Below, piece after piece: positions 4,695-49,701 of a DNA stretch of 64,000 bases; positions within the stretch are counted from its first letter, which is position 1, and the number at the start of each line of letters is the position of its first letter. The stretch spans positions 7,068,001 through 7,132,000 of the forward strand of contig JAWPMV010000001.1 in assembly GCA_033391075.1 (NCBI GenBank), in the 5' to 3' direction. The notes beneath the pieces were generated by a model. That model was not told where the DNA came from. It made no database searches and worked only from the letters and a program-made list of their open reading frames with translations. The position numbers were made by a program, and so were the translations under genes. Origin of the DNA: Bacteroidia bacterium (GTDB lineage: Bacteria; Bacteroidota; Bacteroidia; J057).

Positions 4695-5792
4695 ATGTTA
4701 GTTAGGACTTTCGGGAGTGCGGTTGAAGGAATTCATGCCTCCCAGATCACGATAGAAGTTAATGTTGCTCCAGGGCAGTTCGGCTTGGTCATTGTCGGTT
4801 TACCTGACAATGCGGTTAAGGAATCCTGGGCTCGGATTCTGACTGCTTTCCGGAACAATGATCTCATTTTCCCCAGAAGTAAAGTGGTTGTGAATATGGC
4901 GCCTGCGGATATTCGGAAGGTAGGTTCGGCTTATGACCTGCCGATTGCACTTGGGGTTTTGGCGGGAGATGGGCAAATCCGTTCAGATATGATCGGGGAT
5001 TATGTGATTATGGGAGAAATGTCGCTAGATGGGAGTTTGCAAAGCCTTAGAGGGGCGCTTCCCATGGCGATTGAGGCTCGAAAAGCAGGTTTCAAAGGAA
5101 TCATTCTTCCCACCCAAAATGCAAGCGAAGCAGCTATTGTAAATAAACTGGAGGTGATCGGGGTTGAGAGTTTTGTGGAGGCTGCACAGTTTTTGAATGA
5201 GGAAATAGCCATTGAACCTACGCAAAGAGATACACGGGAAATCTTTTTTCAGCAACAGAGATCTTTTGAGCATGACTTTGCAGATGTAAAAGGGCAGGAA
5301 AATGTAAAGCGTGCACTCGAAATTGCGGCAGCCGGAGGACATAATGTGATTATGATCGGGCCTCCCGGTGCAGGTAAAACCATGCTTGCCAAAAGATTGC
5401 CGAGTATTTTGCCTCCTTTGAGTCTGGAAGAAGCTTTGGAGACCACCAAAATCCATTCTGTAGTAGGGCTATTGTCAGAAAAGGCTGCTTTGGTTGCTGA
5501 GCGTCCTTTTCGAAGTCCGCATCATACCATCAGTGATGTGGCATTGGTTGGGGGAGGAGGGAATCCGCAGCCGGGTGAAATCAGTCTGGCCCATAATGGC
5601 GTTTTGTTTTTGGATGAATTGCCGGAGTTTAAGCGATCAGTTTTGGAGGTTTTGAGGCAGCCGCTGGAGGAACGAAAGATTACGGTATCCCGAGCAAAAA
5701 GCACCGTAGATTTTCCCTGTTCATTCCTTCTTATCAGTTCCGCTAATCCTTGGGGGTGTGTTGCCATTCTGTCATCAATTCAGAGGAATTGA
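4695..5792 (+). pseudogene. comM: comM/yifB 5' part, interrupted by the mobile element
   Basis: Residues 1-352 match the N-terminal domain and AAA+ core of ComM/YifB Mg-chelatase-like ATPases: the opening [13 protein letters not shown], Walker A GPPGAGKT, Walker [11 protein letters not shown] and SSANP just before the sensor region. At 5748-5752 the gene enters the element core CCTTG and then reads 13 foreign residues to a TGA at 5792. The missing C-terminal third is at 49709-50192 in the matching frame. ComM is known as a branch-migration helicase used in natural transformation; the cut should inactivate it while the element is integrated. The same gene is a known insertion site elsewhere, such as AbaR islands in Acinetobacter. 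Confidence 0.92.
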
Positions 5793-7251
5793 GAAAAAAT
5801 GGGGTGGTAGCCGGAGAATAGAGGAGGATTATCTCTATTTCACCTTCCGGGTCAATCACAATGGAATCGGTTACCGTTTCTACAAATGATCGTTTCTCTT
5901 CAAATGACATCTGGGGCCATTGGTCATAAAACAGCTTCGCGTCAGCGAATACCTGATCGCTTGATTCCAGCTGGACTTTTAGAGCGGTAATCTCTCCTTC
6001 CAATAAAGATATCTGAGTTTTGATTTGTTCAGCTTGTTCATAGACGGGTTGATAGTGTTCTTGGAAGGCGTTTTCCGGGATGTGGTTGTTCACCCGTAGG
6101 TCAATGATGGTGTCGAGTTTCTGTTTGAGCGTCTTGTATTCTTTCTGAAGAAGGTTGAGTTGGTCTTCTCGTTCGGTGATCATCTCAATGGCTTTACTGA
6201 GCCAAACTTGGATTTGTTCATCCGTTACCAGGAAGGATTCCAGGTGATGATGGAAGATGTCTTCTAGGTCTTCTTCTCTGATCTTGTTTCTACACTGGTA
6301 GCAGATGTACTTGGGTGAATTTGATGGTACATACATCTTGTGGCCACAACTACACTGGACAATACTGGTGAAGAGATGAGTTCCCTTTTTGGTTCGTGGT
6401 TTACGGCTAGCAGTTTGCTCATCCATGATGGCATTGACCTTGTCCCACAGTTCTTCTGAGACAATGGCTGGTGAGTCAACGATTATCCACTCTTTAGGAT
6501 CTTTGAGATCCCATTGTAAACCTTTACCCCTACTTTTGGTGTAGTTCATTCTCCGTTTACCTTTGGCTACCGGATCACGCAATAATCTATCGACTGAGCT
6601 ATCAGAGAACTTTCTTCCCTTCCGCGTACGATAGCCTTGTTCGTTGAGCAGTCTGGCAACGGTCTTTTTGCGTTTGTGCTCAGCGTACAACTCAAACATG
6701 AGTTTTCTCACCGGAGCTTCGTTATCATCAATAACGAGTTTCTTATCAACATACTTGTAGCCATAAGGCGCTTGTCCGCCGGTCGTTTTACCAAGTTGTG
6801 CTCTGATCGGAACTGAAGCCGCGACCCTGGCTGAGATTTCTTCACGTTCCCATTGAGCCATGGCTGCAATGATAGTGTAGAACAAACGGCCGGCAGGACT
6901 GGAGGTATCAATCTTTTCTTGGAGCGATACCAGATAAGCATTATAGGATTCAAAGTGCTCAGAGAATGTGAGGAGTTCAGAGGTATTCCTGGCTAATCGA
7001 GCCAATTTAGAGAAGATAAGATGGGTAATGCGACCATGAGCGACATCCGCCAGCATTCTTTTCGCCTCAGGATGATCACTGACTGATTTACCACTGACAC
7101 CTTCTAAGTGATAGACCGTGGTAATCTCCCATCCATTAGCTTTGGCATAGGCTCTTGCACGTTCTTCATGGTGTTCAGGGCTTTCTCCTTTGGCTTGTTC
7201 TTCGGTGGATACACGTATCCATATACCAACGCGGGCTGATTCCTTGTTCAT
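5743..7251 (-). CDS. Large serine recombinase, probable element integrase
   Basis: A 502-residue site-specific recombinase. The resolvase domain begins near residue 8 with the catalytic serine at about 15 (RVSTEEQ) and conserved ARLARN and [11 protein letters not shown] segments; the recombinase domain follows ([10 protein letters not shown]), then a zinc ribbon (CSCG... CYQC, near 320-345), a coiled coil and a C-terminal tail. Its last codons cross attL: the T-P-K codons lie in the element and core, and the final D and TAG stop come from comM. In the excised circle the stop disappears and the frame continues into the HTH gene from the right end. It lies 5 bp after the antitoxin gene, probably in one operon. 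Position at the element end makes it the likely integrase. Confidence 0.93.
5748..5766. other. attL: left attachment site
   Basis: Core CCTTG at 5748-5752 is repeated at the right end (49704-49708). The element-side arm TGTGTTGCCA (5757-5766) is the exact reverse complement of TGGCAACACA at 49693-49702. Small core plus flanking inverted arms fits a serine integrase site. Left of the core is comM; right of it is the integrase 3' end. Confidence 0.85.
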
Positions 7252-7256
7252 ATATT

Positions 7257-7625
7257 TTAATATTCCTTGATGAGAAATTTAGGATCAACCTTGAGGACTT
7301 CGGATAAGGTTCGTACCATACTTAAATTCAGTTTGCGTTTGCCGTCTAGGATGTCAGTTACTCGACCCCGATGACCATTAAAGGCTAGCTTAGCCAGATC
7401 AGCTCGGCTGAGTCCCATCTGTTCCATCCGGTATGTGATCATCTCAATTGGGTTGGCTTCAGTCAGTGGATACTGCTTGCGTTCATACTCTGAAACCAAA
7501 AGCGTTAGGATGTCGAGTTCGTAGTATTCCGGGGTGCCTTCTTCGGCATCCCAAATCTCTTCGATACGCTTGGAGGCTTTATCGACATCAGCATCAGTTA
7601 ATATAGGGTGAATGACGATTTCCAT
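7257..7625 (-). CDS. higA: HigA-like antitoxin with HTH domain
   Basis: A 122-residue protein. Its acidic N-terminal half (ADVDKASKRIEEIWDAEEGTPEYYELDIL) is typical of HigA antitoxins paired with HigB of the YgjN kind. The C-terminal half (about 62-118) is a XRE-type HTH: MGLSRADLAK, RGRVTDILDGKRKLNLSM, LSEVLKVDPKFLI. It should bind and neutralise the toxin and repress the shared promoter. It lies 2 bp after higB and 5 bp before the integrase gene, so antitoxin and integrase are probably made from one transcript, which would couple integrase expression to TA autoregulation. Confidence 0.85.
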   Translation of the reverse strand: MEIVIHPILTDADVDKASKRIEEIWDAEEGTPEYYELDILTLLVSEYERKQYPLTEANPIEMITYRMEQMGLSRADLAKLAFNGHRGRVTDILDGKRKLNLSMVRTLSEVLKVDPKFLIKEY

Positions 7626-7627
7626 AT

Positions 7628-7921
7628 CTACACAGTATTAGGATCAATTTTGTCATAGTCAGCATGGGTACCCACAAAGCGCACATACAATCGGCCACCG
7701 TTGTAGTGAATAACTACCACCAAGCGATAACTTCCTCCGCCCAGGCGAAAGACCGCTCGATTGTTAGGTAGTATGCTGGCTGATGGGTACATGGCGCGTA
7801 AGTCATTGGGTGTTGTCCAGTTTGCTTGTCGGACTTCCTTTATCCATTCGGTAAAGGTTGGTTCAGCATTGGGATGGGATCGAAAGAAATCCCGAATCCG
7901 TTTTTCGGTAATGATTCTCAT
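7628..7921 (-). CDS. higB: HigB-like mRNA interferase toxin
   Basis: The likely start is the ATG at 7921 (MRIITEKRIRDFF), the usual opening for HigB/YgjN toxins; a longer frame begins at 7963 but adds 14 atypical residues. The 97-residue product carries the conserved NWTTPNDLRAMYPSA, RLGGGSYRLVVVIHYN and YVRFVGTHADYDKID blocks of the RelE-like HigB fold, which cleaves ribosome-bound mRNA. The toxin gene precedes the antitoxin gene, as in most hig loci. Probably stabilises the element. Confidence 0.85.
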   Translation of the reverse strand: MRIITEKRIRDFFRSHPNAEPTFTEWIKEVRQANWTTPNDLRAMYPSASILPNNRAVFRLGGGSYRLVVVIHYNGGRLYVRFVGTHADYDKIDPNTV

Positions 7922-7974
7922 GTATACGGAAGGGTTTAAGTTTTGTTCCCATATTGGGCACATTTAATACAAAA

Positions 7975-11986: not shown

Positions 11987-13708
11987 ATGCAAACATATGA
12001 AAGTGTACGGTATTTCCTCTATGCCAGGAAATCCAGCGATTCAGAAGATCGCCAAATGGCTTCTATCCCCGATCAAATTGAAGTCATGACCCAACTTGCC
12101 AAACAACGTGGCATTACTATTACTGACATCATAACCGAATCAAAATCAGCCAAGCAGCCAGGACGTCCTGCGTTTAATGACATGATGAACCGGATTAAGT
12201 GCGGTGAAGCTGATGGCCTTTTGTGTTGGAAACTTAATCGACTAGCTCGTAATCCTATTGACGCAGGTGAAGTAAGTTGGCTCCTTCAACGAAGCGTCAT
12301 TAAGCATATCCAAACTCATGGCCAGGATTACAAACCTACGGATAACGTCCTGATGATGCAGGTCGAGTTTGGGATTGCCAATGAATATGTCAAGAACCTT
12401 AGCGCTGACGTTATTCGGGGGTTATCTATGAAAGCGAAGCGAGGCTGGTACCCTAACAACAAAGTTGCTTTGGGATATATCCATAATGCGGGGTATAAGT
12501 TGGGAGAACCAGAAATTATCCCTGATCCGAAAAAATATGACCTGGTCAAACATTTGTGGGAACTCATGCTCTCCGGTCAGTGGAGTATTCGTGAACTACA
12601 AAAAGAAGCCTATCGGATTGGATTGGTTAACTCAATGGGTAAACCACTTAGTAAAAGTGTCTTTTACCGGATGTTTAATAGCCAGTTTTATGCCGGGTAT
12701 TTTGACTGGAATCATGGTGAAGAAGGGGTGATTCGCCATAAGGGGAAACATAAGCGTATGATTACCCTGGAAGAGTATGAGCGTGTTCAGATTCTGCTCG
12801 GCAAACGTGGTAATCGCATTCGTGGCTCACAGAAGTATGAATTTCGGTACAGAGGACCGTTTAGCTGTGGTGAGTGTGGTGGACATATTACTGCTGAACA
12901 CAAATTTCAGGTCATTTGTACCCGGTGTAAGAAGAAATTCTCTGCCAAGACTGAATCAAACTGCCCTGTATGTCAGACTAATATTTCTGAGATGATAAAT
13001 CCCAGTGTAGTGGATAAAACATACTATCGCTGCACCAAAAACGTGGGTCCATGTTCTCAGCCCTGTATAGAAGAAAAGGACCTTGAAGAAAAGATAACTA
13101 AAGAACTCAGAAAAATCTCTATCCCTAAGCGGGTTGCCGTTCTCATACAGAAATCGATTGAAAACGTAAAAGGTTCACCAAACCTAAAAATCAAGGAAAC
13201 CCTTCATCAGAAGCATACCCAGGATAAAAAGAGCCTAGCCAATCTCATCAAGATGAGAATCGAAGGAGAGATTGACCAACGAACCTTCCTTCAGTATAAG
13301 GCTGATCTGGAAGTATCACTGATAAAAACTGAAGATAGCCTTCAGTCTGAAGATAAAAAGCAAGCATGGAAAGGTAAGGTGTTTCGCGATCTCTCTATAG
13401 CTTCCAATATCCCTAATGATCTATCAAAATTGAATAATTCGGAGGTAAAGTCAGTAATTTCTGAAGTTGCTTCGAACCTAGTGATTGTAGACCGAAAACC
13501 CTTATTTTACTTCAAAAAACCGTATTTAGTGTTCCGAGAACTGTATGAGAAGAATAGGGCCAAAATTGATAGCTTCGAACCTAAAAAAGCCCTTGAAAAA
13601 CAAGGGCTTTCAGGGATGAAGTACTGCTACTTTCCCATAGGGCGGGCTGAACGGGACATTCTTCGAACCCTATACTTAGATTCAAATGATATAAACCCCT
13701 TAACTTAA
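11987..13708 (+). CDS. Second large serine recombinase with an extra zinc ribbon
   Basis: 573 residues. The resolvase domain has its catalytic serine at about 16 (YARKSSDSEDRQ), then CWKLNRLARN and the recombinase domain (KRGWYPNNKVALGYIHN). The zinc-ribbon region is unusual: CGECGGHI, then CTRCKKKFSAKTESNCPVC inserted, then a later YYRCTKN... CSQPC pair, so more cysteine pairs than normal. A coiled coil and a C-terminal domain follow. It could belong to a second element nested in the first, or act in resolution or inversion. The last 120 nt also encode a minus-strand terminator for gajB (13586-13610). Confidence 0.9.
   Translation: MQTYESVRYFLYARKSSDSEDRQMASIPDQIEVMTQLAKQRGITITDIITESKSAKQPGRPAFNDMMNRIKCGEADGLLCWKLNRLARNPIDAGEVSWLLQRSVIKHIQTHGQDYKPTDNVLMMQVEFGIANEYVKNLSADVIRGLSMKAKRGWYPNNKVALGYIHNAGYKLGEPEIIPDPKKYDLVKHLWELMLSGQWSIRELQKEAYRIGLVNSMGKPLSKSVFYRMFNSQFYAGYFDWNHGEEGVIRHKGKHKRMITLEEYERVQILLGKRGNRIRGSQKYEFRYRGPFSCGECGGHITAEHKFQVICTRCKKKFSAKTESNCPVCQTNISEMINPSVVDKTYYRCTKNVGPCSQPCIEEKDLEEKITKELRKISIPKRVAVLIQKSIENVKGSPNLKIKETLHQKHTQDKKSLANLIKMRIEGEIDQRTFLQYKADLEVSLIKTEDSLQSEDKKQAWKGKVFRDLSIASNIPNDLSKLNNSEVKSVISEVASNLVIVDRKPLFYFKKPYLVFRELYEKNRAKIDSFEPKKALEKQGLSGMKYCYFPIGRAERDILRTLYLDSNDINPLT
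13586..13610 (-). terminator. gajB terminator embedded in the recombinase gene
   Basis: Perfect 10-bp stem AAAGCCCTTG / CAAGGGCTTT with a 5-nt loop. On the minus strand it is followed by a run of T (TTTTTTAGG), about 185 bp after the gajB stop. It lies wholly inside the convergent recombinase coding region. Confidence 0.8.
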
Positions 13709-13795: not shown

Positions 13796-15475
13796 TTAAA
13801 ATGGGCTATCATTCCTCATTTCTTGAAGTTCAGGGTCTCGTCGCCACCATAAAAACTCTGAAGGCCTTCCATCCTTAACTTCAATCTCTGTGCTTTGATA
13901 CTTTTTCTTATGCCGTTTTGTGCTGGTGCAAAGTACAACGCACTGTTTAGCTCTTGTAATTCCTACGAAATGTAAGGAACCGTCTTGCTGTAGGCGAATA
14001 AATTCCGTAGTCCAGGGATTAGTAGATTTATCTACAACTTTTTTTGCAGGAAGACCCCATTCATACAGATCCAAGTGAAAGACGATCTCAAACTCAAGCC
14101 CCTTTGATTTATGGAGGGTCATAATATTCACCTGATCCTTCTTAGCGGACATATATCTTTCCAATTCTGGATCGTCATTCAGGCTAACCTTTAGTATTTC
14201 TATGGCTTCAAGGGGATCTTCATGTGGTAAAAGTTGCTCGCCAACCTCTTTAAAAAGGTCAATATGATTGAGCAGATTTTCACCACCATCAAATTTTTCC
14301 TTAAGATCCTTAATAAGTTTATCTGCCTTATGGGCTCTTACCGGCTGATGATCCCGCCAGATAAACTCTTCAATTGTTCCATACCGAGACACTTGACCGG
14401 ATACAAGATGCTCCAGTATGCGATTGAATAATCCGGCTGGAGCATCTGCTCTTTCCGAAAGAGGAGTTTTCCTTGAAACCTTGAATTTGATTTCCAGCCC
14501 TGAAGCCAAAACATCAAATTTGATGTTTTGATGCACCAACACTGCTACTTGGTTTCTGTCTTGCACACCGAACTTTCCCATGTATTGCGGTATTGCGTCA
14601 TTGAGCCATTTGGCAATATCGACTTCAGATCCTGTTACCTGTTTTTCAAAAACTCGGATATCAGCATCTTCTTTCGGATGCTCTCCACGCAAGTCCTGAC
14701 CAGTAAAAAAATACCACGCGTAGTTATTGATTGATCTATGACACCTATGATTTAGCGATAGGTTGAATCCAGCGAAATCATCATGTTCATTAAGTTCCTT
14801 AATACATTCGGGCAGACTGAAAATTGCTTGCTTAATATCGCCAACAGCGATTGCCTTGATTCCTAGTTGATGAAGTTCAAGGAACAGTTCATGTTGATCA
14901 CGCTTTGAATCCTGATATTCATCCACAAAAATGTGGGAGTATCGAGCTTTGATGTAGTTTCTACAAGCGGCTGAACTTTTGAAGACATGGAGGGCCAAGA
15001 ATCCAATAGACTCAAGTACAAGAACACCTTCTTGGTACAGACCTTTAAACGCCTCAACGTGTCCCTCTAATATGTCTTCATCTTTCTGGATTTCCGGTAG
15101 TGCATTTAATTTCTCTTTCCATTCGTCACCTAAGGCCTTCCTTTCAACTATTTCAAACTCATTTGCGGGAGGGCCGAAAATCATTTTTCCAAAAGGGATA
15201 ATGATTTCAGAAATGAAGAATTTATGAATAGTCCCGAAGAATGAACCCTTCTTATCAAGGCCGTCCCCAATACAACGGTGTTGTAGTTCTGCGCTAGCTT
15301 TGTTAGTGTATGATATGGCGATTACCCCCATATAATGAGGAAGATCCTTGAGGATGCCGCGGATTTTCTCTGAAATCGTATAGGTTTTACCGCTCCCAGG
15401 GGCCGCCACGACAACACAACTGCTGTCATGGTTGATTACGTTGGATTGTTCATCGGTTGGTGTCTTTTTCTTCAT
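13796..15475 (-). CDS. gajB: Gabija protein GajB, UvrD-like helicase
   Basis: 559 residues with superfamily 1 helicase motifs in order: Walker A APGSGKT (25-31), GTIHKF near 81, DEYQD (185-189), a VNIMTLHKSKGLEFEIVF motif V and VGITRAK motif VI near the C-terminus. In Gabija, GajB joins GajA in a large complex that senses phage attack and nicks or degrades DNA. Its start overlaps the gajA stop by 4 bp (ATGA), so the two are translationally coupled. The length is somewhat above the Bacillus prototype. Confidence 0.93.
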   Translation of the reverse strand: MKKKTPTDEQSNVINHDSSCVVVAAPGSGKTYTISEKIRGILKDLPHYMGVIAISYTNKASAELQHRCIGDGLDKKGSFFGTIHKFFISEIIIPFGKMIFGPPANEFEIVERKALGDEWKEKLNALPEIQKDEDILEGHVEAFKGLYQEGVLVLESIGFLALHVFKSSAACRNYIKARYSHIFVDEYQDSKRDQHELFLELHQLGIKAIAVGDIKQAIFSLPECIKELNEHDDFAGFNLSLNHRCHRSINNYAWYFFTGQDLRGEHPKEDADIRVFEKQVTGSEVDIAKWLNDAIPQYMGKFGVQDRNQVAVLVHQNIKFDVLASGLEIKFKVSRKTPLSERADAPAGLFNRILEHLVSGQVSRYGTIEEFIWRDHQPVRAHKADKLIKDLKEKFDGGENLLNHIDLFKEVGEQLLPHEDPLEAIEILKVSLNDDPELERYMSAKKDQVNIMTLHKSKGLEFEIVFHLDLYEWGLPAKKVVDKSTNPWTTEFIRLQQDGSLHFVGITRAKQCVVLCTSTKRHKKKYQSTEIEVKDGRPSEFLWWRRDPELQEMRNDSPF

Positions 15476-17217
15476 TGCGCTTCAACAATTTCCTTACAAC
15501 GCTTTAATGGCTCTACAACTTTTTCGGTTTCAAGCGCGTTTAACTCCCCAGATTTTGCGCTGAGGAACCCAAACATATTTACACCCTTCTTGGCTGACAT
15601 CAGCTTAACGTATTGATCATCAGTTTTACCTGTACCATAATGATTTTCAATAGCTTGTTTCAGTGGCGAATTAACTAAATCTGATTCCAGGTCTTTGTTT
15701 GCCAGATAGAAGTCAATTTTACAAAAGGCATCCCTAAAACCATTTATTGCGGTTTCCACTGTAGGATCATCCGGGTTATCAATGTCATTAACAGTCTGGA
15801 AAGCAGAATCAATTTGGTTCTTGATTTCCTCAACTTCTACACCATTGGCATTGTAAATATTTTTTCCAACAGAAATACCCCTTGCGTACTGATTCCCATT
15901 ATTCTTTTTAATTACATCTAGATCTGTTCTAATCACCCAAGGTATATTTAACGAATTGAATAGCTTTATGTATGCCTCGAATCCAATTCCTTCAACGCTC
16001 AGCACGCTGATATTATAGAAATCTAAGTCAATCCCTATTTGGCTACCTAATGCCTTGTAAAACATAACTTCAGAAACACCCTCAACCAGTAATACAGCAC
16101 TACAAAAGAAGGCTTCTGCTGGAAGGATATTCATCCGGTGGGCAAAATCAATGACTGCACCTCCGATATTTTGACCACACCCATCACTCGCAGCCTTTGT
16201 ATCGGGTTTATTGTTGTATAGCTTTACAATCGAGTCAGGAGAAAACTCACTTGCTATTTGAGGAGAATGGCTTGAGATGAAAAGTTGACTCGAAGTATTG
16301 TTAACGAAATAACTGGCAAGCTTCCTCTGTTGGTGAGGGTGAAGGTGGGCTTCGGGTTCTTCTATACAGTAAATGGTTACCTCTTTATCAAAGTCCTCCT
16401 GGATCTTATTCTTCGTAGCCCACAAAGCAAAGTAGATCTGATTATTTCTACCAGCCCCTCCAATCGATAATTGGTTATCATTAACCGAGTTGGCCAACTT
16501 AATATTCTCAATGAAGTCCTTTGCCTCAGCTTCAACCACCTCGAATACTACTTTATTCCCATGATGGTGGTAAGCGAGCTTCTCCAATTCAGTGTTGAGA
16601 TGGTCAGTTGAATTTTGAATGTAGGAGAGTTCTTTTACCAAGCTATTTATTTCTCCTAGCTTATTTTTAAGCTCAGCTTGTTTGGTGTCGTCGGCATCGA
16701 CTACCGCCTGATCGGTCCGTAAAGTCTTTGCATCTTCTAAGAGGTTTTTCTTTTCTCGGCGAATGTAATCGAATAGATCCCGGTTACTATCAATGTACCT
16801 CAAGTTAAGAACACGTAGATAATCAGGACGACTGATCGGAGTGAAATTAGTACCATCAGGAGACGCGCTGATTCGAAATGGTTCGTCATTGTTGCCCCGG
16901 AATCCTTCATATCTCAGAAATACTTCGTGAGTATCGCTACAATACTTACCTAACTTTGCTACAAGGCAGTCTTCCGTAACATCAATTAGTTTTAGTGTTA
17001 TCTCGATGGCGTCTGTTTGCTCATGCACGTAAAAGTCAGAATCATCAGGTTTGAGATCTTGATAGGATAATCCAGGATCAAGCAACAAGCGAAATGCCCG
17101 AATAAAGTTTGTTTTTCCAATATCATTTGGACCTATGATCAGGGCCTGTTGTGCAAGGTTAATAGTTGCATCCTTAAAATTGCGGAAGCCTTTAATGGTA
17201 ATTTTTGAAATCTTCAT
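15472..17217 (-). CDS. gajA: Gabija protein GajA, OLD-family ATPase-nuclease
   Basis: I set the start at the ATG at 17217 (MKISKITIKGFRNF), the normal beginning of OLD/SMC-like ATPases, giving 581 residues, close to the known GajA length; the 78 residues upstream in frame are not conserved in character. Walker A is GPNDIGKT (29-36). The signature and Walker B region is CIEEPEAHLHPHQQ. The Toprim nuclease domain follows with LLVEGVSEVMFY and RTDLDVI. GajA nicks DNA when nucleotide pools fall during infection. With gajB it forms a complete two-gene Gabija operon on the minus strand. Confidence 0.94.
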   Translation of the reverse strand: MKISKITIKGFRNFKDATINLAQQALIIGPNDIGKTNFIRAFRLLLDPGLSYQDLKPDDSDFYVHEQTDAIEITLKLIDVTEDCLVAKLGKYCSDTHEVFLRYEGFRGNNDEPFRISASPDGTNFTPISRPDYLRVLNLRYIDSNRDLFDYIRREKKNLLEDAKTLRTDQAVVDADDTKQAELKNKLGEINSLVKELSYIQNSTDHLNTELEKLAYHHHGNKVVFEVVEAEAKDFIENIKLANSVNDNQLSIGGAGRNNQIYFALWATKNKIQEDFDKEVTIYCIEEPEAHLHPHQQRKLASYFVNNTSSQLFISSHSPQIASEFSPDSIVKLYNNKPDTKAASDGCGQNIGGAVIDFAHRMNILPAEAFFCSAVLLVEGVSEVMFYKALGSQIGIDLDFYNISVLSVEGIGFEAYIKLFNSLNIPWVIRTDLDVIKKNNGNQYARGISVGKNIYNANGVEVEEIKNQIDSAFQTVNDIDNPDDPTVETAINGFRDAFCKIDFYLANKDLESDLVNSPLKQAIENHYGTGKTDDQYVKLMSAKKGVNMFGFLSAKSGELNALETEKVVEPLKRCKEIVEAQ

Positions 17218-17417
17218 AGGCACGACTACACTCGGTGTTGACTCTTTTGAGAAAAAGGAAATTAATTTCTTATAAGGTATAATTCGGCTCAATAAAGAAA
17301 AGGTTCGATCCACCCACCTATACCTAGCTCTAATCGAAACAAAATATTCACATATTGATCTGAAACTGGGCTTCATCTTAAGGTATACTGAAAAGCAAGT
17401 GAAGCGTTCGGCGACTA

Positions 17418-17443
17418 AACGAGGATTCTGAAGATTCCTCGTT
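17418..17443 (+). promoter_or_regulatory. Leader hairpin upstream of ardC
   Basis: Perfect 8-bp stem AACGAGGA / TCCTCGTT with a 10-nt loop followed by CTTTTCATTT, 53 bp before the ardC ATG. It resembles a weak intrinsic terminator and could attenuate ardC. The intergenic region 17218-17496 should also hold the gajA promoter. Confidence 0.45.
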
Positions 17444-17496
17444 CTTTTCATTTGTCAGAAAGCTGATCTCCATTTTTTCACCAAAAATTTATCGTC

Positions 17497-18393
17497 ATGA
17501 GACAGCAAAGACAAGCTGGCCAGAAGACTGGTCAGACCGTAGACGTGTATCAGTTTATTACTGATCAGATTGTGAAAGCCTTGGAACAAGGACGGATTCC
17601 CTGGAGAAAGACCTGGCAAGGGGTAGGTTATGCCAGAAACTACGTTACCAAGCATATCTATACCGGTATTAACGCCATTCTGACTAATCTTAGTCCGTAT
17701 GAAGTCCCCTACTTTATCACCCTCAAACAAGCCAATGCTTTGGGCGGTAAAGTCAGACGTGAAGCCAAGAGTCTTCCGATAGTGTACTGGAAGATTTCCT
17801 ACAAGGACCAGGAAGGCAATATTGTGGTAGATGAAGATAGGTTTGGTCAGGACGATCTGACCAAGCTCTTCTTTGCCCGGTATTATCGGGTCTTCAATAT
17901 CTCAGATATTGAAGGGATAGACTTTCAGTTACCAGAGACTCCTCATACTCACGATCAGCTTGATCAGTGTGAACGGATCATTGCCAGCATCCCTAATCCA
18001 CCTACAATCAGATTCGGTGGTAGCGAGCCCTACTATGCTCCACCCATTGATACCGTGCAGATGCCGGTACTCAATCAATTTGAGAGTCCTGAAGCCTACT
18101 ATGCGACCTTCTTTCATGAGCTGGTACACAGTACTGGGCATGTATCGAGGCTGATGCGCGAAGAAGTGATGGGAACAGTGAAATTTGGTTCACTGATCTA
18201 CTCCCAGGAAGAGCTGACGGCTGAGATCGGAGCGGCCTTTCTCTGTCGGGTGGTTGGGATTGATAATCCCGCCACCTTCACCAACTCTACCGCCTACATC
18301 CAAGGCTGGTTGAGCAAGCTCAAAGATGACAAGAAGTTCATCTTTCAGGCGGCGAGTAAGGCGAAGCGAGCTGTAGAATACATTTTGCCATAA
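17497..18393 (+). CDS. ardC: ArdC-like antirestriction protein
   Basis: 298 residues. An N-terminal single-stranded-DNA-binding domain (DVYQFITDQIVKALEQGRIPW... YTGINAILT) is followed by a zincin metallopeptidase-like domain with HELVHSTGH (His207, Glu208, His211) and a downstream EELTAEIGAAFL helix. ArdC proteins on mobile elements protect incoming DNA from restriction. It is divergent from gajA and followed by its own terminator. Its presence beside a type I system, an Mrr-like enzyme and Gabija means the element carries both attack and counter-defence functions. Confidence 0.9.
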   Translation: MRQQRQAGQKTGQTVDVYQFITDQIVKALEQGRIPWRKTWQGVGYARNYVTKHIYTGINAILTNLSPYEVPYFITLKQANALGGKVRREAKSLPIVYWKISYKDQEGNIVVDEDRFGQDDLTKLFFARYYRVFNISDIEGIDFQLPETPHTHDQLDQCERIIASIPNPPTIRFGGSEPYYAPPIDTVQMPVLNQFESPEAYYATFFHELVHSTGHVSRLMREEVMGTVKFGSLIYSQEELTAEIGAAFLCRVVGIDNPATFTNSTAYIQGWLSKLKDDKKFIFQAASKAKRAVEYILP

Positions 18394-18515: not shown

Positions 18516-19349
18516 ATGAACTGGGAAGAATATGAAGACGTAACCAAATACATCTACGAGACCCTAGGCCATAAAAAGGGAGTTAAGATCGTTGGGCATG
18601 GGAAAGATTGTAAAGTAAAAGGCACATCAGGCGTTTTCCATCAAATAGATGTGCTGATCAGTTACAATGATGGAGATAATGACTACTTGATAGCCATAGA
18701 ATGTAAACACTGGAAAAAAACGGTAAACAAAGACGTCGTTATGAAATTGGTCTGTGTTATTGAAGACGCCAGAATCCATAAGGGTGTAGTCGTTTCTCAA
18801 AAGGGTTTTACCAAGGATGCAAGGTTGTTTGCTAAGTATAAAAACATAGACCTGACGGTGCTCAGCGAGCTAGATGAAAAGGATCAAAAGAAAGAGGCGC
18901 AAGAACCGAGCTTTGAAATCGGGACGCTCATCGTTATGAACAAGGTTGAACGAAGTCGCCCCGAGATATTGAGTATAACGTTTGATCCACGAAAACCAGA
19001 GCTCTCATCTCTACCACCACATCTTTTAATCTTAAGGCAAAAAGATGGCAAAGACACCCCACTTAATCATTACATCGCGACTTTTAAAAAGCAGCTGCAT
19101 AAGTTAGAGGCGGAGAAAATACTTCAGGAGTATTATGATCTCAAAGAGGGTCATTTGATTAATAAAGCAACCAAAGAGATAGTGCCAATTAGAGGCTTCA
19201 CCTTGAAAGGCAAACTAACCGTAAAGAACATAAGTGGAAACCGGCAGATAGACATTGTGGATGAAGTTTGGATGAAAATGAAAGTACTGTTTGAAGGCAA
19301 ATCTTATACTATTTCTAAGACGGGTATGATTAAAGAAGATAGGAAGTAG
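18516..19349 (+). CDS. Mrr-like restriction endonuclease (type IV-like)
   Basis: 277 residues. The N-terminal domain has the Mrr-type PD-(D/E)XK pattern: HQIDVLISY (Asp45) and IAIECKHWKKTV (Glu62, Lys64), then a KGVVVSQKGFTKDARLFAKYKNIDL segment typical of this fold. The C-terminal 150 residues are not recognised and may sense substrate. Mrr-like enzymes cut modified or foreign DNA; the exact target cannot be read from sequence. It stands alone between ardC and a lipoprotein gene, so it may be a single-protein defence function. Confidence 0.75.
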   Translation: MNWEEYEDVTKYIYETLGHKKGVKIVGHGKDCKVKGTSGVFHQIDVLISYNDGDNDYLIAIECKHWKKTVNKDVVMKLVCVIEDARIHKGVVVSQKGFTKDARLFAKYKNIDLTVLSELDEKDQKKEAQEPSFEIGTLIVMNKVERSRPEILSITFDPRKPELSSLPPHLLILRQKDGKDTPLNHYIATFKKQLHKLEAEKILQEYYDLKEGHLINKATKEIVPIRGFTLKGKLTVKNISGNRQIDIVDEVWMKMKVLFEGKSYTISKTGMIKEDRK

Positions 19350-33941: not shown

Positions 33942-36866
33942 TTAAATCTTATGCGCTTTCTTAATGATGGTGAATAGATGCTCCACAATATCGGTCGCTA
34001 TATTTGGATCATCTACCTGCGACAACACTGCAAAGGTGACCTTCCGACGTAATTCCCTATAATCCCGCTCACTACTTACCCAGTTCACATGCTCAGTAAA
34101 GGCTCCCTTTATTCTTTTGCCTACTTCTTCGGCTTCTCCCACACCCACATCAAGTAACGTTCGATAGAAAAAGAAAGTAAGTCCATCAAAGCCTTTTTTA
34201 GACTGCTCCCTTCTGCGGCGGTTATCTTCTTCGATTTGTTTGAATAACTCTTGAAGGGCTTCAGAAGTGGTCATTTGCCGATTCTCAAAGCTTTCTTTAA
34301 CTGTCTGTGCTCTGTCTGACATGGCAATAAGGAAGGGATCACCACTTTGTTCTTCTGCATTCTTTTCAATACTCTTTACCAAGTTAATGACCTTGGTATT
34401 ATCGCCACCGGTTTTCTTTTGGATCTGCGAAATGGTGTCTTCATTTATTTCATAAAATTCATTGACCATTTCAATATCCGTAGCCCCTATTTTCTCTTGA
34501 ACAAGCTCACTGGTCTTTTTTTGGAAATCCCTATCAACGTATACCCGTTTGGCATAAGCCCGGCTTACAACCTGGTAAATTGCACTCAGCGTTCCATAAT
34601 CATCAATGTATGACCGTAAAAAGGCATCAGGAGAAATAATTTCGTAGAGCATTTCAATCTCTTTGTACTCTTTGAAAAATTCTTTTCGTCGGTCTTTATC
34701 ACGGAAGTATTCGATCAGACTATCAACATCTTTATCATTAAAATTCTGTTCAATTAATGCCAGGTACTGAGGAGCTTTATCCCGCATTTTCGAGGCGAAC
34801 AGTGTTTTGAGTAGTTTGATGTCTTTTACAATGGCGTTGATCTCTTCACTATCGAAGGCCAGGGCAGCTTCCAACTTGTCAAAGATCCCGACAAAATCTA
34901 ATACGAATCCATGAGGTTTGACCATTTCCTGATCCTCATTTTCGTACGGCCTATTAACGCGGGCAATTGCCTGGAGAAGGGTGTGGTCACGCATGGGTTT
35001 ATCAAGGTACATGGCGTAGAGAATGGGGGCGTCAAAACCAGTAAGAAGTTTTTCGGTCACGATGAGGATTTTCGGTTGCTCTCCATGTTTGGTGAATTCC
35101 CGGCGAATACGCCGCTCTTCTCGTTCGTCTATATGAAACTCCTTGAGAAGTTCTTTATCGTTGTTATTTCCAGTATAGACGACAGCTGAATAGTCTCCGG
35201 GCAGGTATTTATCAATCGCCTTTTTATACAAAGCACAAGCTTCTCGGTCTACTGCAACCAGAAATGCCTTATACCCTAATGGCTCAACATTCAGCTGATA
35301 GTGCTCGGCAACATACTTAGCCACCTTTTCAATTCGATTTCTCCCTTTGAGGAAATTCTTAATATTGACAGCACGATCCAGAATTTTGTTTAGCTCCTCA
35401 ATGTCTGCCACCCCTTCTGATTCTGCCAAGGCCAAAAATTCATTTTCAAGGTCTTCTACTGGGACCAACATTTCATTGGGAGCCAGATTGTAGTACAGCG
35501 GAAGTGTTGTTCCATCAGCAATACTGTCTTTGATTGTGTATTTATGGAGATAGCCCTGGGCGTCATCAACGCCAAAGGTTTTGAATGTACCTTTCCCGTA
35601 GGCAGTTTTATCAATTGGTGTCCCGGTAAAGCCAATATATGTGGCATTGGGGATACCAGCCATGAGATAGTTACCCAAGTCGCCTCCAGTAGTACGGTGA
35701 GCTTCATCAACCAGTACATAAATATTGGACCGGGTGTTAACGTTAGGCTTGAGATCACGGAATTTATGAATCATAGTCACGACGACACCGCGATAGTCAT
35801 CACGTAATATCTTCTGAAGCTCTTTAATGTTGTAAGCATGTCTAACATTATTCAACCCCAAAGATGTCAGATTTTTAAGCATCTGGTCTTCTAACTCATT
35901 GCGATCAATCAAAAGAAGAATGGTAGGCTTTTCAGATTCAGGAGCCTTGAATAGTAATTCTGCTGCCTTGATCATCGTAAATGTCTTTCCACTACCCTGA
36001 GTATGCCACACCAAGCCTCTTGTTTTCTTGGCATCATGCGAACGCTCAACGACGGCCTCAACCGCCTCAGTTTGATGCTGGCGAAGAATGTACTTTTGCA
36101 TCATCTCATCCTTTTCGGCGAAGATCACGTAATCCTTAACCATTTTAAGGAGTCGTGTCGGTTCACAAAATGATTTTACTTTAGATTCAAGATGTCCGAT
36201 TTGCTCATCCTTCCAGTTAAAGATATTTCGGCGTACCAAATTCCAGGTTACACCATATGCAAAGCCTATTGATTCTGTTGCAGTAAACAACATTTGAGGA
36301 ACGAACAATTCTGGAGTCTCACGGTGGTAGCGACGAATTTGATCAACCCCAAGTGCAATGGCTTCGTCTTTGTTGGCATTTTTACACTCGATGACTAAAA
36401 TCGGCATACCATTAACCAGGAATACTACATCTTCTCGTGTTCCATATCGTCCATTGTTCCAATAGAATTCTTCGGTTACATGAAGTGTATTGTTTTCAAA
36501 ATTGTCATAATCGATGAGTTTGAGATCGTATTCACGATTTTCTCCAGGATGAAAAAATGTAGCCTCATTACGGAGGTATTGGTGAAAATTTTGATTGCCC
36601 CAGATATCGTGATGGAGCCGAGAAAAATCTCCAATCAATGCTCCTTTTGACTCAGTATACTCTGGATTTAGTTGTATAACTTTTTCATATAGGTGATCAG
36701 TAAAAAAGGCTGAAGCGTTTTTGGCTTTTTCTGCTGGAGAAGTTTTTGACTGATCAAAACCGCGAAAGGATTCTGCTTCAGAGCGAGGGACAAATGTCCA
36801 CCCAATTTCCTTGGCATATTTCAAGATGCGAGCTTGGACAGTTTTATGTTCTCCTGGTTTAGGCAT
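33942..36866 (-). CDS. hsdR: Type I restriction enzyme R subunit (HsdR)
   Basis: 974 residues. The N-terminal nuclease domain has the PD-(D/E)XK residues Asp146 and Glu160-x-Lys162 (ILVIECKNANKDEA). The motor follows: LVWHTQGSGKT Walker A (about 286-295), DEAH (387-390), FTGTPI, and a TGFDAPILYAMYLDKP / QAIARVNRP helicase end. The C-terminal helical domain binds the methylase core. It translocates DNA and cuts unmethylated DNA away from the recognition site. Its start overlaps the hsdS stop by 8 bp, so expression follows HsdS. Confidence 0.95.
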   Translation of the reverse strand: MPKPGEHKTVQARILKYAKEIGWTFVPRSEAESFRGFDQSKTSPAEKAKNASAFFTDHLYEKVIQLNPEYTESKGALIGDFSRLHHDIWGNQNFHQYLRNEATFFHPGENREYDLKLIDYDNFENNTLHVTEEFYWNNGRYGTREDVVFLVNGMPILVIECKNANKDEAIALGVDQIRRYHRETPELFVPQMLFTATESIGFAYGVTWNLVRRNIFNWKDEQIGHLESKVKSFCEPTRLLKMVKDYVIFAEKDEMMQKYILRQHQTEAVEAVVERSHDAKKTRGLVWHTQGSGKTFTMIKAAELLFKAPESEKPTILLLIDRNELEDQMLKNLTSLGLNNVRHAYNIKELQKILRDDYRGVVVTMIHKFRDLKPNVNTRSNIYVLVDEAHRTTGGDLGNYLMAGIPNATYIGFTGTPIDKTAYGKGTFKTFGVDDAQGYLHKYTIKDSIADGTTLPLYYNLAPNEMLVPVEDLENEFLALAESEGVADIEELNKILDRAVNIKNFLKGRNRIEKVAKYVAEHYQLNVEPLGYKAFLVAVDREACALYKKAIDKYLPGDYSAVVYTGNNNDKELLKEFHIDEREERRIRREFTKHGEQPKILIVTEKLLTGFDAPILYAMYLDKPMRDHTLLQAIARVNRPYENEDQEMVKPHGFVLDFVGIFDKLEAALAFDSEEINAIVKDIKLLKTLFASKMRDKAPQYLALIEQNFNDKDVDSLIEYFRDKDRRKEFFKEYKEIEMLYEIISPDAFLRSYIDDYGTLSAIYQVVSRAYAKRVYVDRDFQKKTSELVQEKIGATDIEMVNEFYEINEDTISQIQKKTGGDNTKVINLVKSIEKNAEEQSGDPFLIAMSDRAQTVKESFENRQMTTSEALQELFKQIEEDNRRRREQSKKGFDGLTFFFYRTLLDVGVGEAEEVGKRIKGAFTEHVNWVSSERDYRELRRKVTFAVLSQVDDPNIATDIVEHLFTIIKKAHKI

Positions 36867-38037
36867 AGGCTTCAGACTTTTCTAGTGTATCAAAATCTAA
36901 ATTACTTACCGAAATTTCTGCGGTCATTAGTTTGTGGAGAAGAGTGCGAAATAAGGATTCAAGAGATTTCTTTTTTTTCTTGTGAACAGATAATTTATCA
37001 TCAATGGAATCTAAAATTTTAGTCATTTTTATTTGCTCTTCTAGACTTGGAACTGGCACTAAAATACTTCTAAAAGTGTTCCGATTTAATGTTGGGACTG
37101 CAACCCCAGATTTGTACTTTTCCAGCTTCAAATTGTTAAGCTGATAATAGCAAAATTTAGGATGGTTCCCGTGAAAATCCTTCACATATAAAACAACATT
37201 ATGGGCCCAAAAGTCATTAGAATAAAAAGTGGCTTTCCCAGCAGAAGAACCACTCCTTGTAACTGTAACTCCTGGCCCTGTTACATTGGCCTCGTTATGG
37301 TATCCAATTATTGAGATTGCTCCAGCAACTGGTATTTCTCCCTTTATAAATTCTTTTTTCGTCAGATCTTTCCCCCTTTGGAGGGTGGTAAATTTATCAA
37401 ACATTACCAAAGTCCAGCTCTCAGGTATTGGGCCAATCTCTGTCATCTTCTTTGGCTCACTCTTTATTCCCTCTGTGAACAATTTATGCACCAAAGCTTT
37501 TTTCAACTCTGATGTTAATTCAATCAGTTGATCTTGCAACTCAATAGCTTGCTGAACTGTAGAAAGGACATATGCTATTCTTCTTTGTTCAAAAATACCT
37601 GGAGTGGGAAGCTCTATTTCTTGAAAGTTACTTTTATTCAAGATCGGAAGCGTGGTCTTAACTGAAGCTTGGACCAAAATAGGTCGGTTATAGAGAACTA
37701 AATAGTAAATAAAATCAGGATCATAATTTTCATTACATATAATAGCGTTAATCTGTTGGTTAAACGCTGAAACTTCATCAGTTGTCATGCCAATCTTTCC
37801 AATATTTCCAATGCATCCCACAAGAACAGCGTTTTTTGGTAAAGTCCTAGCCACTTTTATTCCTTCTTCCGTCAGTAGTTTGTGTGAGGTTTTAATAGAT
37901 TTCCCTCGATCCAAATCTTTGGGAGAAATAAGTTTATACGAACCACCATAGAATTCCTTTTTTTTGCTACTAGGGGTTGTACCAGTAAGAATTCTCCCGA
38001 AATCTTTGATCTTATGCTTGACCCATTTATCTTTCAT
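36859..38037 (-). CDS. hsdS: Type I restriction specificity subunit (HsdS)
   Basis: 392 residues with two target-recognition domains, each followed by a helical spacer: the first opens KIKDFGRILTGTTPSS and ends TPGIFEQRRIAYVLSTVQQAIELQDQ; the second opens SWTLVMFDKFTTLQRGKDL and ends VPSLEEQIKMTKILDSIDDKL. This is a complete HsdS that should read a bipartite site; the site cannot be predicted. No second or truncated hsdS or inverted repeats for shuffling were seen nearby. Overlaps hsdM by 4 bp. Confidence 0.93.
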   Translation of the reverse strand: MKDKWVKHKIKDFGRILTGTTPSSKKKEFYGGSYKLISPKDLDRGKSIKTSHKLLTEEGIKVARTLPKNAVLVGCIGNIGKIGMTTDEVSAFNQQINAIICNENYDPDFIYYLVLYNRPILVQASVKTTLPILNKSNFQEIELPTPGIFEQRRIAYVLSTVQQAIELQDQLIELTSELKKALVHKLFTEGIKSEPKKMTEIGPIPESWTLVMFDKFTTLQRGKDLTKKEFIKGEIPVAGAISIIGYHNEANVTGPGVTVTRSGSSAGKATFYSNDFWAHNVVLYVKDFHGNHPKFCYYQLNNLKLEKYKSGVAVPTLNRNTFRSILVPVPSLEEQIKMTKILDSIDDKLSVHKKKKKSLESLFRTLLHKLMTAEISVSNLDFDTLEKSEAYA

Positions 38038-39602
38038 ATACCTAGCTTTTCCAAAATTGAAAATATTTGTCTATTCACATCCTCAGCATCTTCTTCAAGA
38101 GTATTTATTTCATCTATTATCTCTCTAATTGGTCTATACTCCTCTGTCTCCCTGGCATGTATATACCGGCTCGGTGAAATATTATAGTCGTTTTTTGCAA
38201 TTTCTTCTTTGTGTACTATTCGACTTAATTTCTCTTCCTCATCTTTCCAGTTTGTGAAAATGCTACTGATGAGTTTGATTCCTTCATCAGTGATAAAGTT
38301 TTTAGGATCTCCTTTTTCGAAGACTTTACTTGCATTAAGTAGGAAGATTTTATCCTTTCGCTCAGCCGGTTTATCCTTTTGAATGAAGACAATAATCCCC
38401 GGCGCTGAAGTGTTGTAAAAGAGGTTTTCCGGTAGGTAAATTACCCCCTCGACCAGATCATTATCTACAAACCACTTACGGGCATCTTTTTCTTTGTTCG
38501 TGTTGGCATTACCTGATCCACGAGATGCCGCCCCGGTATCAAGGACTACAGCAGCCCGACCATTTTCCTTCAAGCTAGCATAAATATGTTGCATCCAAGC
38601 CCAATCAGCATTACCTCCAGGATTTTGACTAAAGCGGTCATAGGGATCATTTTCAAAGAATTCTTCTCCAAGATATGGTAATGAATCCCTATTTTGATTC
38701 CACATGGGATTAGCAACTACTCGATCAAATTTCTTAATTCTGTTTCGGTCGATTAATTTTGGATTCTTCATCGTATCTCCCAATTCGATCTCTCCCTCCA
38801 TATCGTGAACGATCATGTTCATTTGAGCCATTGCCCAGGTCTCGGGGGTAAATTCTTGCCCATACAATTTTAGTGGCGATATTTTGCCTTTACCAGCAAA
38901 CTTTTCACCCAGGACAATCTGATTTTTAATAAGGAGCCCACCCGACCCACAAGTGGGATCATAAATTTCCATTCCGGGCTCAGGGTCCATTATTTTCGCC
39001 ATAATAATCCCAACCTCGGTGGGAGTATAAAACTCACCCGCACTCTTTCCGCTGTTTTCTGCGAACTTACGGATAAGGTACTCGTAACTTCGGCCGATAA
39101 CATCAGGCTCAACATCCTTGATACCCAGCTTCTTTTCGCTAATTTTTTCAATAAGATTTGAAAGGCGATCATCATCAATATCACGCTGCCCATGCGTGGT
39201 AGCATTGAAGTCCACACGATCAATTATTCCTTGGAGGGTTGGGTTTTCTTTGGCAATATCACGGAGAATGGTAGTGAGTTGCTCGCCAATTTTACTCGCC
39301 AATTTTCTAATCACTGACCACACTGGATCGTCATGATTATCTGGGGTCAAAGGTAGGTAAAAACGAACAAGATCATTATCAAGTTTTACCAAAGCAAATG
39401 CCTTTTTCCTGGAACCAACTTCTTTTGCAATACGGTCTAGTTCGTCATCAAATACATCACAGAGACGTTTAGTAAATATAAGAGGAAGAATGTAGTCCTT
39501 AAACTTGGGGGCATCTTTCGCTCCTCTGATACTACAGGCTGCACCCCAAATCCATGATTCGAGTGATTTTTGTTCCGTTCCGTTCTTAGTTGTATTCGCC
39601 AT
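38034..39602 (-). CDS. hsdM: Type I restriction methylase subunit (HsdM)
   Basis: 522 residues. SAM-binding motif I is DPTCGSGGLL (215-224). The catalytic motif is NPMW (298-301) in place of the common NPPF; the N-P pair is retained, and this variant exists among HsdM proteins as I recall. HsdM_N helices (LESWIWGAACSIRG... YILPLIFTKRLCDVFDDEL) precede. Adds methyl groups to adenine with HsdS. First gene of hsdMSR; the GxxExxY gene stops 2 bp upstream, so the operon may begin further up. Confidence 0.94.
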   Translation of the reverse strand: MANTTKNGTEQKSLESWIWGAACSIRGAKDAPKFKDYILPLIFTKRLCDVFDDELDRIAKEVGSRKKAFALVKLDNDLVRFYLPLTPDNHDDPVWSVIRKLASKIGEQLTTILRDIAKENPTLQGIIDRVDFNATTHGQRDIDDDRLSNLIEKISEKKLGIKDVEPDVIGRSYEYLIRKFAENSGKSAGEFYTPTEVGIIMAKIMDPEPGMEIYDPTCGSGGLLIKNQIVLGEKFAGKGKISPLKLYGQEFTPETWAMAQMNMIVHDMEGEIELGDTMKNPKLIDRNRIKKFDRVVANPMWNQNRDSLPYLGEEFFENDPYDRFSQNPGGNADWAWMQHIYASLKENGRAAVVLDTGAASRGSGNANTNKEKDARKWFVDNDLVEGVIYLPENLFYNTSAPGIIVFIQKDKPAERKDKIFLLNASKVFEKGDPKNFITDEGIKLISSIFTNWKDEEEKLSRIVHKEEIAKNDYNISPSRYIHARETEEYRPIREIIDEINTLEEDAEDVNRQIFSILEKLGI

Positions 39603-49100: not shown

Positions 49101-49287
49101 GAATAAGGATGGTTTCTTTCAGTTACTCATGGAGTTGAAAGTTAAGTCGAAGAGTACGGAAAAGACGATTAAGGGTTATCGCGTGAAGTCTTCATATAAG
49201 GCGGTATCTGGGAAAGATGCACAACGGATGCAGGAACAATTGGCAGATATTTACATGAAGTCCAAAAAGTCAAAGCCCAAAAAATGA
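46183..49287 (+). CDS. TraD/HerA-like ATPase with nuclease-fold C-terminal domain
   Basis: 1034 residues. The N-terminal 370 residues are not recognised. ATPase motifs: GATGTGKSTLL near 408-418, VLDPHGDLIDDI, VYLDEFQNF near 648-656, and ARKYGLGLVLAHQSMDQL. These are type IV coupling or HerA-like DNA-pump motifs. A Pro/Lys-rich linker (VKPTSKPKPPKEPR) leads to a C-terminal domain (about 870-990) with GRVDVLL (Asp903) and IACEVAVTT (Glu916) where the catalytic lysine of PD-(D/E)XK is replaced by Ala918. It probably moves DNA during transfer, with the tail binding DNA. Its end overlaps the convergent HTH gene by 18 bp. Confidence 0.82.
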   Translation: MSTHHSDILSKRFYDWEVWGRGWFVHGEPIFPEPPFTPFPGHSIVATKPKDDTFRHSISSYILSAIKNRIVGKPGDNSEEEQSVALPKIFPVVEELTELVMAIPPDFTVSPSVMEQFLVMIASTKSPVSFEIVGTHQHIFFQFTCRLSEAGYVRSQLKAFFPQVVVQVADGSLYGALAREECLSVTLELGLTEEFMRPINMPTQLDVDPYTAIVGILDDLDEHEVAAIQILFHGTERPWADSVIRSVTTSRGEPFFLDAPEMTTLAKEKVSQPLMAVNVRLIAQSRDEAAYDLAALLGNALVAGTERVGSNALQALEADGLEHVKFLTSLIERTTYRTGMILNVRELMGLVHLSGNLPSNKLVQFSKSKRAPEITNIEEYVIGYNPHQGEAHTVGLPLPVRLRHIHLVGATGTGKSTLLVNLILQNILNEPYGGAVLDPHGDLIDDIVAQIPEHLQHKFILIDPSDDLYSIGFNLLSANSEHEKVMLASDLAASFKAQTTSWGDQMDTVLQNAIAAFLESSRGGTLIDLRRFLVDEKFRKQFLTTVTDPLIVSYWEKEFPKLRSGSVSSLLSRMQLFLRPKPVRYMLMQKEGLDFNQVMNDGLILLVKLSQGLIGEENSHLLGSMILTKLYQSALGRQVYDKHERVPFFVYLDEFQNFITPTLEGILSGARKYGLGLVLAHQSMDQLYRRSPAVANSVIANAGTRICFRLGDNDASSLQNSFADFDANDLLSLKIGDAIVRVGTKDQDFNLKTLLPDKVPLATARGRYLSALHISSLTFGTPIRELEEILQREYAGDKADKSSIFEEVDFTEVPDEPEVKPTSKPKPPKEPRFLSAPPQTKTKPVETTTDPETAREEIIKRAKQKAEETEHRSLQMHIKKVAEGMGYLSVMEAPTPDRKGRVDVLLTKDKHTIACEVAVTTTNQHELGNIQKCLTAKYSLVVVVSEKPKRLENIKSLVAKSVSKTAQKRIHYVNKDGFFQLLMELKVKSKSTEKTIKGYRVKSSYKAVSGKDAQRMQEQLADIYMKSKKSKPKK

Positions 49288-49701
49288 GTTGAGCTTGCTG
49301 AGCGTTTTGGTAAACGGTGGCTTCTTCCCAAGATTCCGTTCAAGTCGCCACAAGGTATATTCATCTACCCCAATCCGCCTAGCTACTACCTTCTGAGCTA
49401 CACCTTCATATCGCCTATATCTTCTAATTTTATACCCCCATGATTCGTCATCCGACTCAGGATAATACCCTAAAAAGTTAATGATCTTTGGCCAGTTATG
49501 AATATGTGGTTCATTGTGATTTAACTCCCAATTAACCAGACAATCAGGGGTAATACTGAGTTGTTTAGCTACTTGTGTTTGATACAATCCCCGATCCATT
49601 CGCACTTTTCGCAAATGATCACCAACGGTATGTAAACTGGCTGGATAGCCGTATGGAGGCGGTTTTTGAGCTTTAATAGACAAGTGGCATTTTGGCAACA
49701 C
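49270..49701 (-). CDS. Double-HTH protein at the element right end
   Basis: 143 residues from a GTG at 49701, inside the attR arm. Two HTH modules: TVGDHLRKVRMDRGLYQTQVAKQLSITPDCLVNWELN (about 26-62) and KIRRYRRYEGVAQKVVARRIGVDEYTLWRLERN (about 91-123). It sits at the attachment site, and in the circular form the integrase frame enters it directly. In the integrated state only GTG or TTG codons are available before a TGA upstream. A separate regulator with a GTG start is possible, since similar proteins, as I recall, often begin near an LPxC motif as here. Confidence 0.8.
   Translation of the reverse strand: MLPKCHLSIKAQKPPPYGYPASLHTVGDHLRKVRMDRGLYQTQVAKQLSITPDCLVNWELNHNEPHIHNWPKIINFLGYYPESDDESWGYKIRRYRRYEGVAQKVVARRIGVDEYTLWRLERNLGKKPPFTKTLSKLNSFFGL

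Follow-up and report, generated by a model that had tools for sequence, protein, structure and literature searches.

The window, by which we mean the whole stretch of 64,000 nucleotides analyzed here, contains a comM gene that is interrupted by a 44-kb element. The 5' part of comM (positions 4695 to 5752, plus strand) and its 3' part (49704 to 50192, plus strand) form the left and right halves of attB, and when we rejoined the flanks at the core, the in silico empty site carried one continuous comM frame of 513 aa (...SSANPCLCGYFNHPTRDCICNP...). Comparison of the two junctions gave a 5-bp core, CCTTG, common to both ends of the element (left end, 5748 to 5752; right end, 49704 to 49708; both plus strand), within which the inferred crossover dinucleotide is TG (5751-5752, plus strand; CA on the integrase strand), a placement that fits the comM codons in relatives. 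Joining the element ends in silico gave the plus-strand attP TGGCAACACAACCTTGGGGGTGTGTTGCCA. It has 10-bp inverted arms that match perfectly: the right-hand arm, TGTGTTGCCA (5757 to 5766, plus strand), lies within the integrase open reading frame (ORF), and the left-hand arm, TGGCAACACA (49693 to 49702, plus strand), overlaps the beginning of the HTH frame described below. The predicted site has the form expected for a large serine recombinase (LSR), namely, a short attP in which inverted arms flank a central dinucleotide, and a single crossover into attB. Its assignment as attP draws on the 10-bp arms, the repair of comM in the empty site, and a CA (TG in genome G126) that fits the comM codons in 45 genomes.

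The element is probably mobilizable and defense carrying. Its cargo includes a Gabija pair (GajB/GajA, 13796-17451), a type I restriction-modification operon (33942-39602), an Mrr-like nuclease (18516-19349), an ArdC-like protein (17497-18393), a relaxase, two coupling-protein genes, and a second large serine recombinase of 573 aa (11987-13708), which possibly marks a nested or former element. A coupling-protein-like ATPase of 1034 aa (46183-49287) adjoins the HTH end, and a HigB-type toxin gene with an antitoxin-like gene (HTH_3 slightly below the cut-off) lies directly upstream of the integrase (7257-7963).

The integrase gene is read on the minus strand (5743 to 7251) and in its integrated-state form encodes 502 aa. 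Its PF00239 (1.5e-32) and PF07508 (5.3e-22) domains, both above the cut-off, and the matches of a natural homologue to LSR-att complexes in the PDB place it among the large serine recombinases; its zinc ribbon is weak (23 bits versus a cut-off of 25.3). At the opposite end of the element, also on the minus strand, 143 codons counted from a GTG (49270 to 49701) encode a two-HTH tail (PF12844, PF01381, and PF13560) that ends in SFFGL and is in phase with the integrase once the ends are joined. An earlier note on this DNA had read the integrase as W-Q-H-T-P-K followed by a D codon and TAG from comM, and this proved exact at the codon level, the 502-aa ORF ending W-Q-H-T-P-K-D-TAG with its last two codons supplied by comM. 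The same note had predicted that joining the ends would carry the frame without a stop into the HTH protein. We rebuilt the junction and confirmed the prediction: the D codon becomes GTT and is followed by the GTG and the entire 143-residue HTH frame, giving 645 aa. Any one join would be in frame about one time in three, even before stop codons are considered; we therefore searched for relatives.

Among 395 genomes sampled from the phylum, HTH relatives (31 to 44% identity, some with weak E-values) were present in 15 beyond the window's own. The HTH adjoined one comM half in 8 of these 15 genomes, and a related integrase stood at the opposite comM half in 4 of the 8 (in one case on a separate contig); all 4, together with the window, rebuild open fusions of 636 to 646 aa. 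A first scan of genome_contigs with a single HTH query gave no match. A scan with an alignment of the fusion gave 353 relatives, and among the best 80 of these, which are not a census, 58 integrases read into the 5' half of comM, 1 read into the 3' half, 8 were fused to an HTH, and 13 had neither comM nor an HTH in the available stretch. An HTH match was found in 36/48 and 26/33 entries of the searched genomes (two genomes being common to both sets), and its absence from the other 19 of 81 entries (12/48 and 7/33) is perhaps explained by most of them being incomplete MAGs.

We paired an integrase end with an HTH end of the same genome when the comM halves that they adjoined were complementary. 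The crossover was placed from the comM codons alone, blind to the frames, at the CA (integrase strand) that corresponds to the TG of a conserved cysteine codon; G126 was the sole case in which the core was placed by hand. No row was dropped for its frame. The set leaves out HTH loci without an adjoining comM (L163, L176, L177, L179, L180, L184, L192, L200, L211, L226, L232, and others), integrases that lack comM, entries in which no HTH was matched, the second HTH copies of two genomes (L210 and L191), and G047, which has the same junction sequences as G713, and it keeps L174 and L175, in which the comM core motif was found though BLAST gave no adjoining comM. The resulting 45 genomes, the window included, fall into 11 named phyla (16 Bacteroidota, 9 Pseudomonadota, 4 Acidobacteriota, 2 Ignavibacteriota, and one in each of seven others), with 7 rows lacking a phylum name; most are MAG contigs, and their host labels are uncertain.

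All 45 rebuilt attP sites joined the integrase and the HTH in phase; a first count of 41 pairs, also in phase without exception, is contained in the later 47 pairs. The tails of the rebuilt fusions were 82 to 211 residues long (>100 in 42/45). By the position of the core in the codon at the two ends, the pairs formed three frame classes, (1,2) with 31 members, (2,1) with 12, and (0,0) with 2. When the HTH ends were shuffled, a mean of 24.6 pairs were in phase, and 45 was reached in 0 of 200,000 shuffles. A maximum-likelihood tree of the 45 integrases had six frame-class changes, the number forced by its well-supported branches, and each of the six had a matching change at the HTH end. The integrase and HTH distances were likewise correlated (Mantel r = 0.58, reached in 0 of 5,000 permutations). 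In G126, where the element is inserted the opposite way and the core is TG, the fusion is also in frame. Judged from the frames, chance is excluded as the source of the window's open integrase-HTH frame, because 45 of 45 pairs are in phase across three coordinated classes, compared with a shuffled mean of 24.6, and such coordinated conservation is, in sequence terms, the signature of selection on one uncut gene. We also considered, and rejected, an arrangement in which attP merely lies beside the integrase gene.

Several other arrangements came to light in the same genomes. A 523-aa frame (G254) and a 520-aa frame (G425) looked like further fusions and turned out to be the 5' half of comM joined to the HTH; in these inverted insertions (L011/L045, G254:C285; G425:C2), comM and the HTH form an in-frame chimera. 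L037 (G228:C14) and L044 (G004:C35) have a whole comM plus an additional comM 3' fragment beside the HTH end, and these fragments are either remnants or belong to elements that restore comM. G039 has a whole comM and nine HTH matches (L020, L022-L027, and L032-L034, on C3, C19, and C26), several of them beside attP-like arms outside comM and including a head-to-head HTH pair with one common palindrome (L023), a possible accretion array.

Next, we looked at contigs in which the integrase, attP, and HTH follow one another unbroken. There were 11, of which 9 were in frame (L074, L075, L076, L077, L079, L084, L096, L139, and L214, with core phases of 1, 1, 2, 1, 1, 0, 1, 2, and 1, respectively, so that all three frames occur) and 2 were not (L122 and L225, both with integrase phase 1 and HTH phase 1); hybrid junctions between two tandem elements of different frame classes would explain the latter. 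L084 (659 aa) and L139 (641 aa) are single ORFs that start with ATG and contain Resolvase, Recombinase, and two HTH domains by Pfam. Among the remaining in-frame copies, L079 has a stop 41 codons past the integrase match, only one HTH domain is present in each of L076 and L077, and L096 and L214 have arms that match poorly as palindromes (6 and 5 of 9). Five of the fusions (L074, L076, L077, L084, and L139) come from MAGs of candidate phyla, all of the Patescibacteria kind, and in these MAGs comM matched over nearly its whole length as one open frame. The genomes of L075, L079, L096, and L214 have comM in pieces. The L096 fusion, from a Mucilaginibacter MAG, lies between comM pieces on one contig, a position that would fit an internal junction within a tandem array. 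At a distance of 7.5 kb from the L084 fusion lies another large serine recombinase, which could have inserted that element elsewhere.

The contigs with natural fusions that were tested for circularity (4/4 contig-end pairs and the L075 contig) had no end overlap. No fusion turned up among plasmid or phage records: the HTH protein gave no match there, and the 67 plasmid records matched by the natural fusion L074 each matched over no more than 80% of the query. In viral contigs, the HTH alone found nothing and the attP pattern had no exact match; query A1 gave two integrase-only loci and query A2 one other LSR (L234). The last, at 2080-4319 of L234, is a large serine recombinase that differs from the integrases described here, and the 3' end of its gene overlaps with an HTH ORF that is of the same kind but is read in another frame. 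At L163, an uninterrupted attP-like palindrome and an HTH stand without an integrase in front. Relatives of the 1034-aa ATPase share a stretch with the natural fusions in L076, L077, L084, L096, L139, and L214 and are absent from the stretches of L074 and L075.

The earlier note had placed attP inside an integrase-HTH ORF that integration cuts, and it had suggested comparing related elements; that comparison gave in-frame fusions at 45 of 45 rebuilt sites, and the claim is supported by these genomes and by the natural uncut fusions. The plain alternative named in the note was a separate HTH gene started from its own GTG. In a broader form, this alternative states that the HTH is an ordinary gene with a GTG or TTG start and that the frame match across attP is incidental. 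A GTG does stand at the first listed codon of the window's HTH, and a TTG lies between the core and the HTH domain in 42/45 HTH frames, so a TTG start is possible. However, 31 of the 45 HTH ORFs have neither ATG nor GTG from the core to the HTH domain, integration places antisense comM upstream of the HTH frame, all 45 pairs are in phase in three frame classes, and single-ORF fusions exist in nature. We regard a separate gene as extremely unlikely. The same start codons bear on a dual use of the tail, in which it would be fused to the integrase in the circle and, after integration, be released as a free HTH regulator from an internal TTG or GTG. This possibility agrees with the HTH frames being open in integrated copies, with tails of >100 residues in 42/45 and TTG common upstream of the HTH domain, but it too is set against the 31/45 without ATG or GTG and the antisense comM that becomes the upstream sequence. 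We consider dual use rather improbable. A gene fused across attP, by comparison of sequences, is well supported.

We modeled the natural fusion L074 with AlphaFold2 (42-row alignment, mean pLDDT of 86.6, pTM of 0.58). The serine-integrase fold was ordered to residue 478 and included long helices at 347-446; it was followed by a linker with pLDDT under 50 (482-508) and by two four-helix HTH domains (helices at 530-646), whose placement relative to the integrase is unreliable at a pTM of 0.58. As attP codes for residues 498-507, the crossover in the model falls in the flexible linker and leaves both sides whole. The 10 best PDB matches to the whole model were serine integrases with DNA (att complexes), with low whole-chain TM-scores (0.17-0.25 by query), as expected of a jointed protein. 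The HTH region matched domains of P22 c2-type repressors, with weak E-values of 0.02-0.05. Since the integrase fold is complete without the tail, the tail might be a passive extension whose frame is maintained for no other purpose than to give the circular integrase a proper end. That purpose could be served more simply by a stop codon close to attP, yet an HTH tail is kept (median 36% identity), and we find a passive tail very unlikely.

After integration, the catalytic and Recombinase domains remain together in the 502-aa form, and across the 45 genomes the integrated integrases gain a median of 8 antisense-comM residues (range, 2 to 326). The position of attP, the open frame across it, its conservation with coordinated frame shifts, and the natural uncut copies are established at the level of sequence. 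The reading that we prefer, to which we assign a probability of about 0.82, is that these elements have one int-hth gene, with attP inside it, that is cut by integration and encodes an HTH-tailed integrase in the circle. The product of int-hth in the circle would begin with an entire large serine recombinase and continue through a flexible linker, for which attP supplies the codons, into two XRE-like HTH domains; in the case of the window, we infer that the 645-aa protein is made in the circle. Recombination of attP with attB in comM would cut the gene in the linker. The integrated element would retain a catalytically complete integrase, its reading frame closing after a few codons of antisense comM, and the HTH part would be stranded at the other end without the integrase promoter and mostly without an ATG or GTG start. 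Excision would restore the long gene.

What the tail does in this cycle is the last step of the proposed mechanism. The tailed form would carry out integration of attP into attB, possibly with repression of its own promoter as well, and the tail-less chromosomal form would have a different activity, such that the structure of the gene would record whether the element is in or out and would bias the direction of recombination. The HTH tail would in this way make the integrase state dependent. Alternatively, the fusion may be real and the tail purely autoregulatory, binding the int promoter in the circle and limiting int expression until integration cuts the tail off, with no direct effect on recombination. 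HTH_3/HTH_19-type domains and the weak matches to P22 c2-type repressor domains (E-values of 0.02-0.05) point toward such a role; against it, the tail is covalently joined to the recombinase and is not a separate product. We would place state dependence and directionality first and pure autoregulation second, and on its own terms we think autoregulation unlikely, with a chance that is nonetheless appreciable. For the family as a whole, we tentatively suggest, at a little under even odds, that these cross-phylum, comM-specific serine integrases use the split gene as a memory of state and that a covalently attached HTH tail, which only the circular form possesses, determines direction (and int expression) in place of, or in addition to, a separate directionality factor.

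The integrases of the Myxococcus phages Mx8 and Mx9 are tyrosine integrases. In Mx8, attP lies within the coding sequence of int, and integration gives the protein a new 3'-encoded end with which it is still active, with changed specificity (PMC6070905). The family described here resembles Mx8 int in that attP lies in the int coding sequence of a bacterial element and the integrated form has a host-derived 3' end; unlike in Mx8, the enzyme is a large serine recombinase, a conserved HTH unit is removed, and the arrangement is kept in many phyla. The archaeal "suicidal" SSV-type integrases (SSV1, pTN3, and pT26-2) have an att site in the integrase gene, which is partitioned by integration, and the review describing them calls self-disrupting recombinases exclusively archaeal (PMC8371274). 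Here, too, the att site is inside the integrase gene and the gene is cut by integration. In contrast to those tyrosine enzymes, which lose their catalytic part, our family has serine recombinase domains, keeps its catalytic part intact, and loses no more than the HTH tail.

The earlier note had drawn a parallel with mycobacteriophages. In the integration-dependent immunity of Clusters G, N, and P, attP lies in the repressor gene and integration removes the C terminus and changes the activity of the protein (PMC9262239); at the internal junctions of tandem mycobacteriophage prophages, frame-dependent fusions are described (PMC9934374). The parallel is apt in that attP is in a regulatory coding sequence whose C terminus is removed by integration. 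The immunity systems differ in that attP is in a repressor, the tyrosine integrase is a separate protein, and what integration removes is an ssrA-like degradation tag, whereas here attP is in the int-hth ORF and the tail consists of two HTH domains, so our family stands outside that group. The mycobacteriophages are also not the closest case: the nearest bacterial precedent is Mx8 int, and the archaeal suicidal integrases are the nearest widespread kind.

As for the target, comM presumably belongs among the magnesium chelatase-like genes used by LSRs. A magnesium chelatase-like gene is described as a favorite target of large serine integrases in a paper whose available parts mention neither an attP inside the LSR gene nor an HTH tail (PMC10083194). 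Our searches of the open-licence full-text literature gave no case of a serine-integrase gene with attP inside it.

These results carry a warning for annotation, as an integrated integrase and an "orphan" HTH gene at the far end of the element can be two pieces of one gene; LSRs of this family that are taken from integrated elements therefore lack their native C terminus. A natural integrase with two forms would be useful for the question of how serine integrases choose direction and for recombination tools. More broadly, the comparison points to a family of bacterial serine integrases, spread over many phyla, whose gene would be cut by its own product, and the frame is conserved strongly enough to reveal selection acting on the gene in its uncut form.
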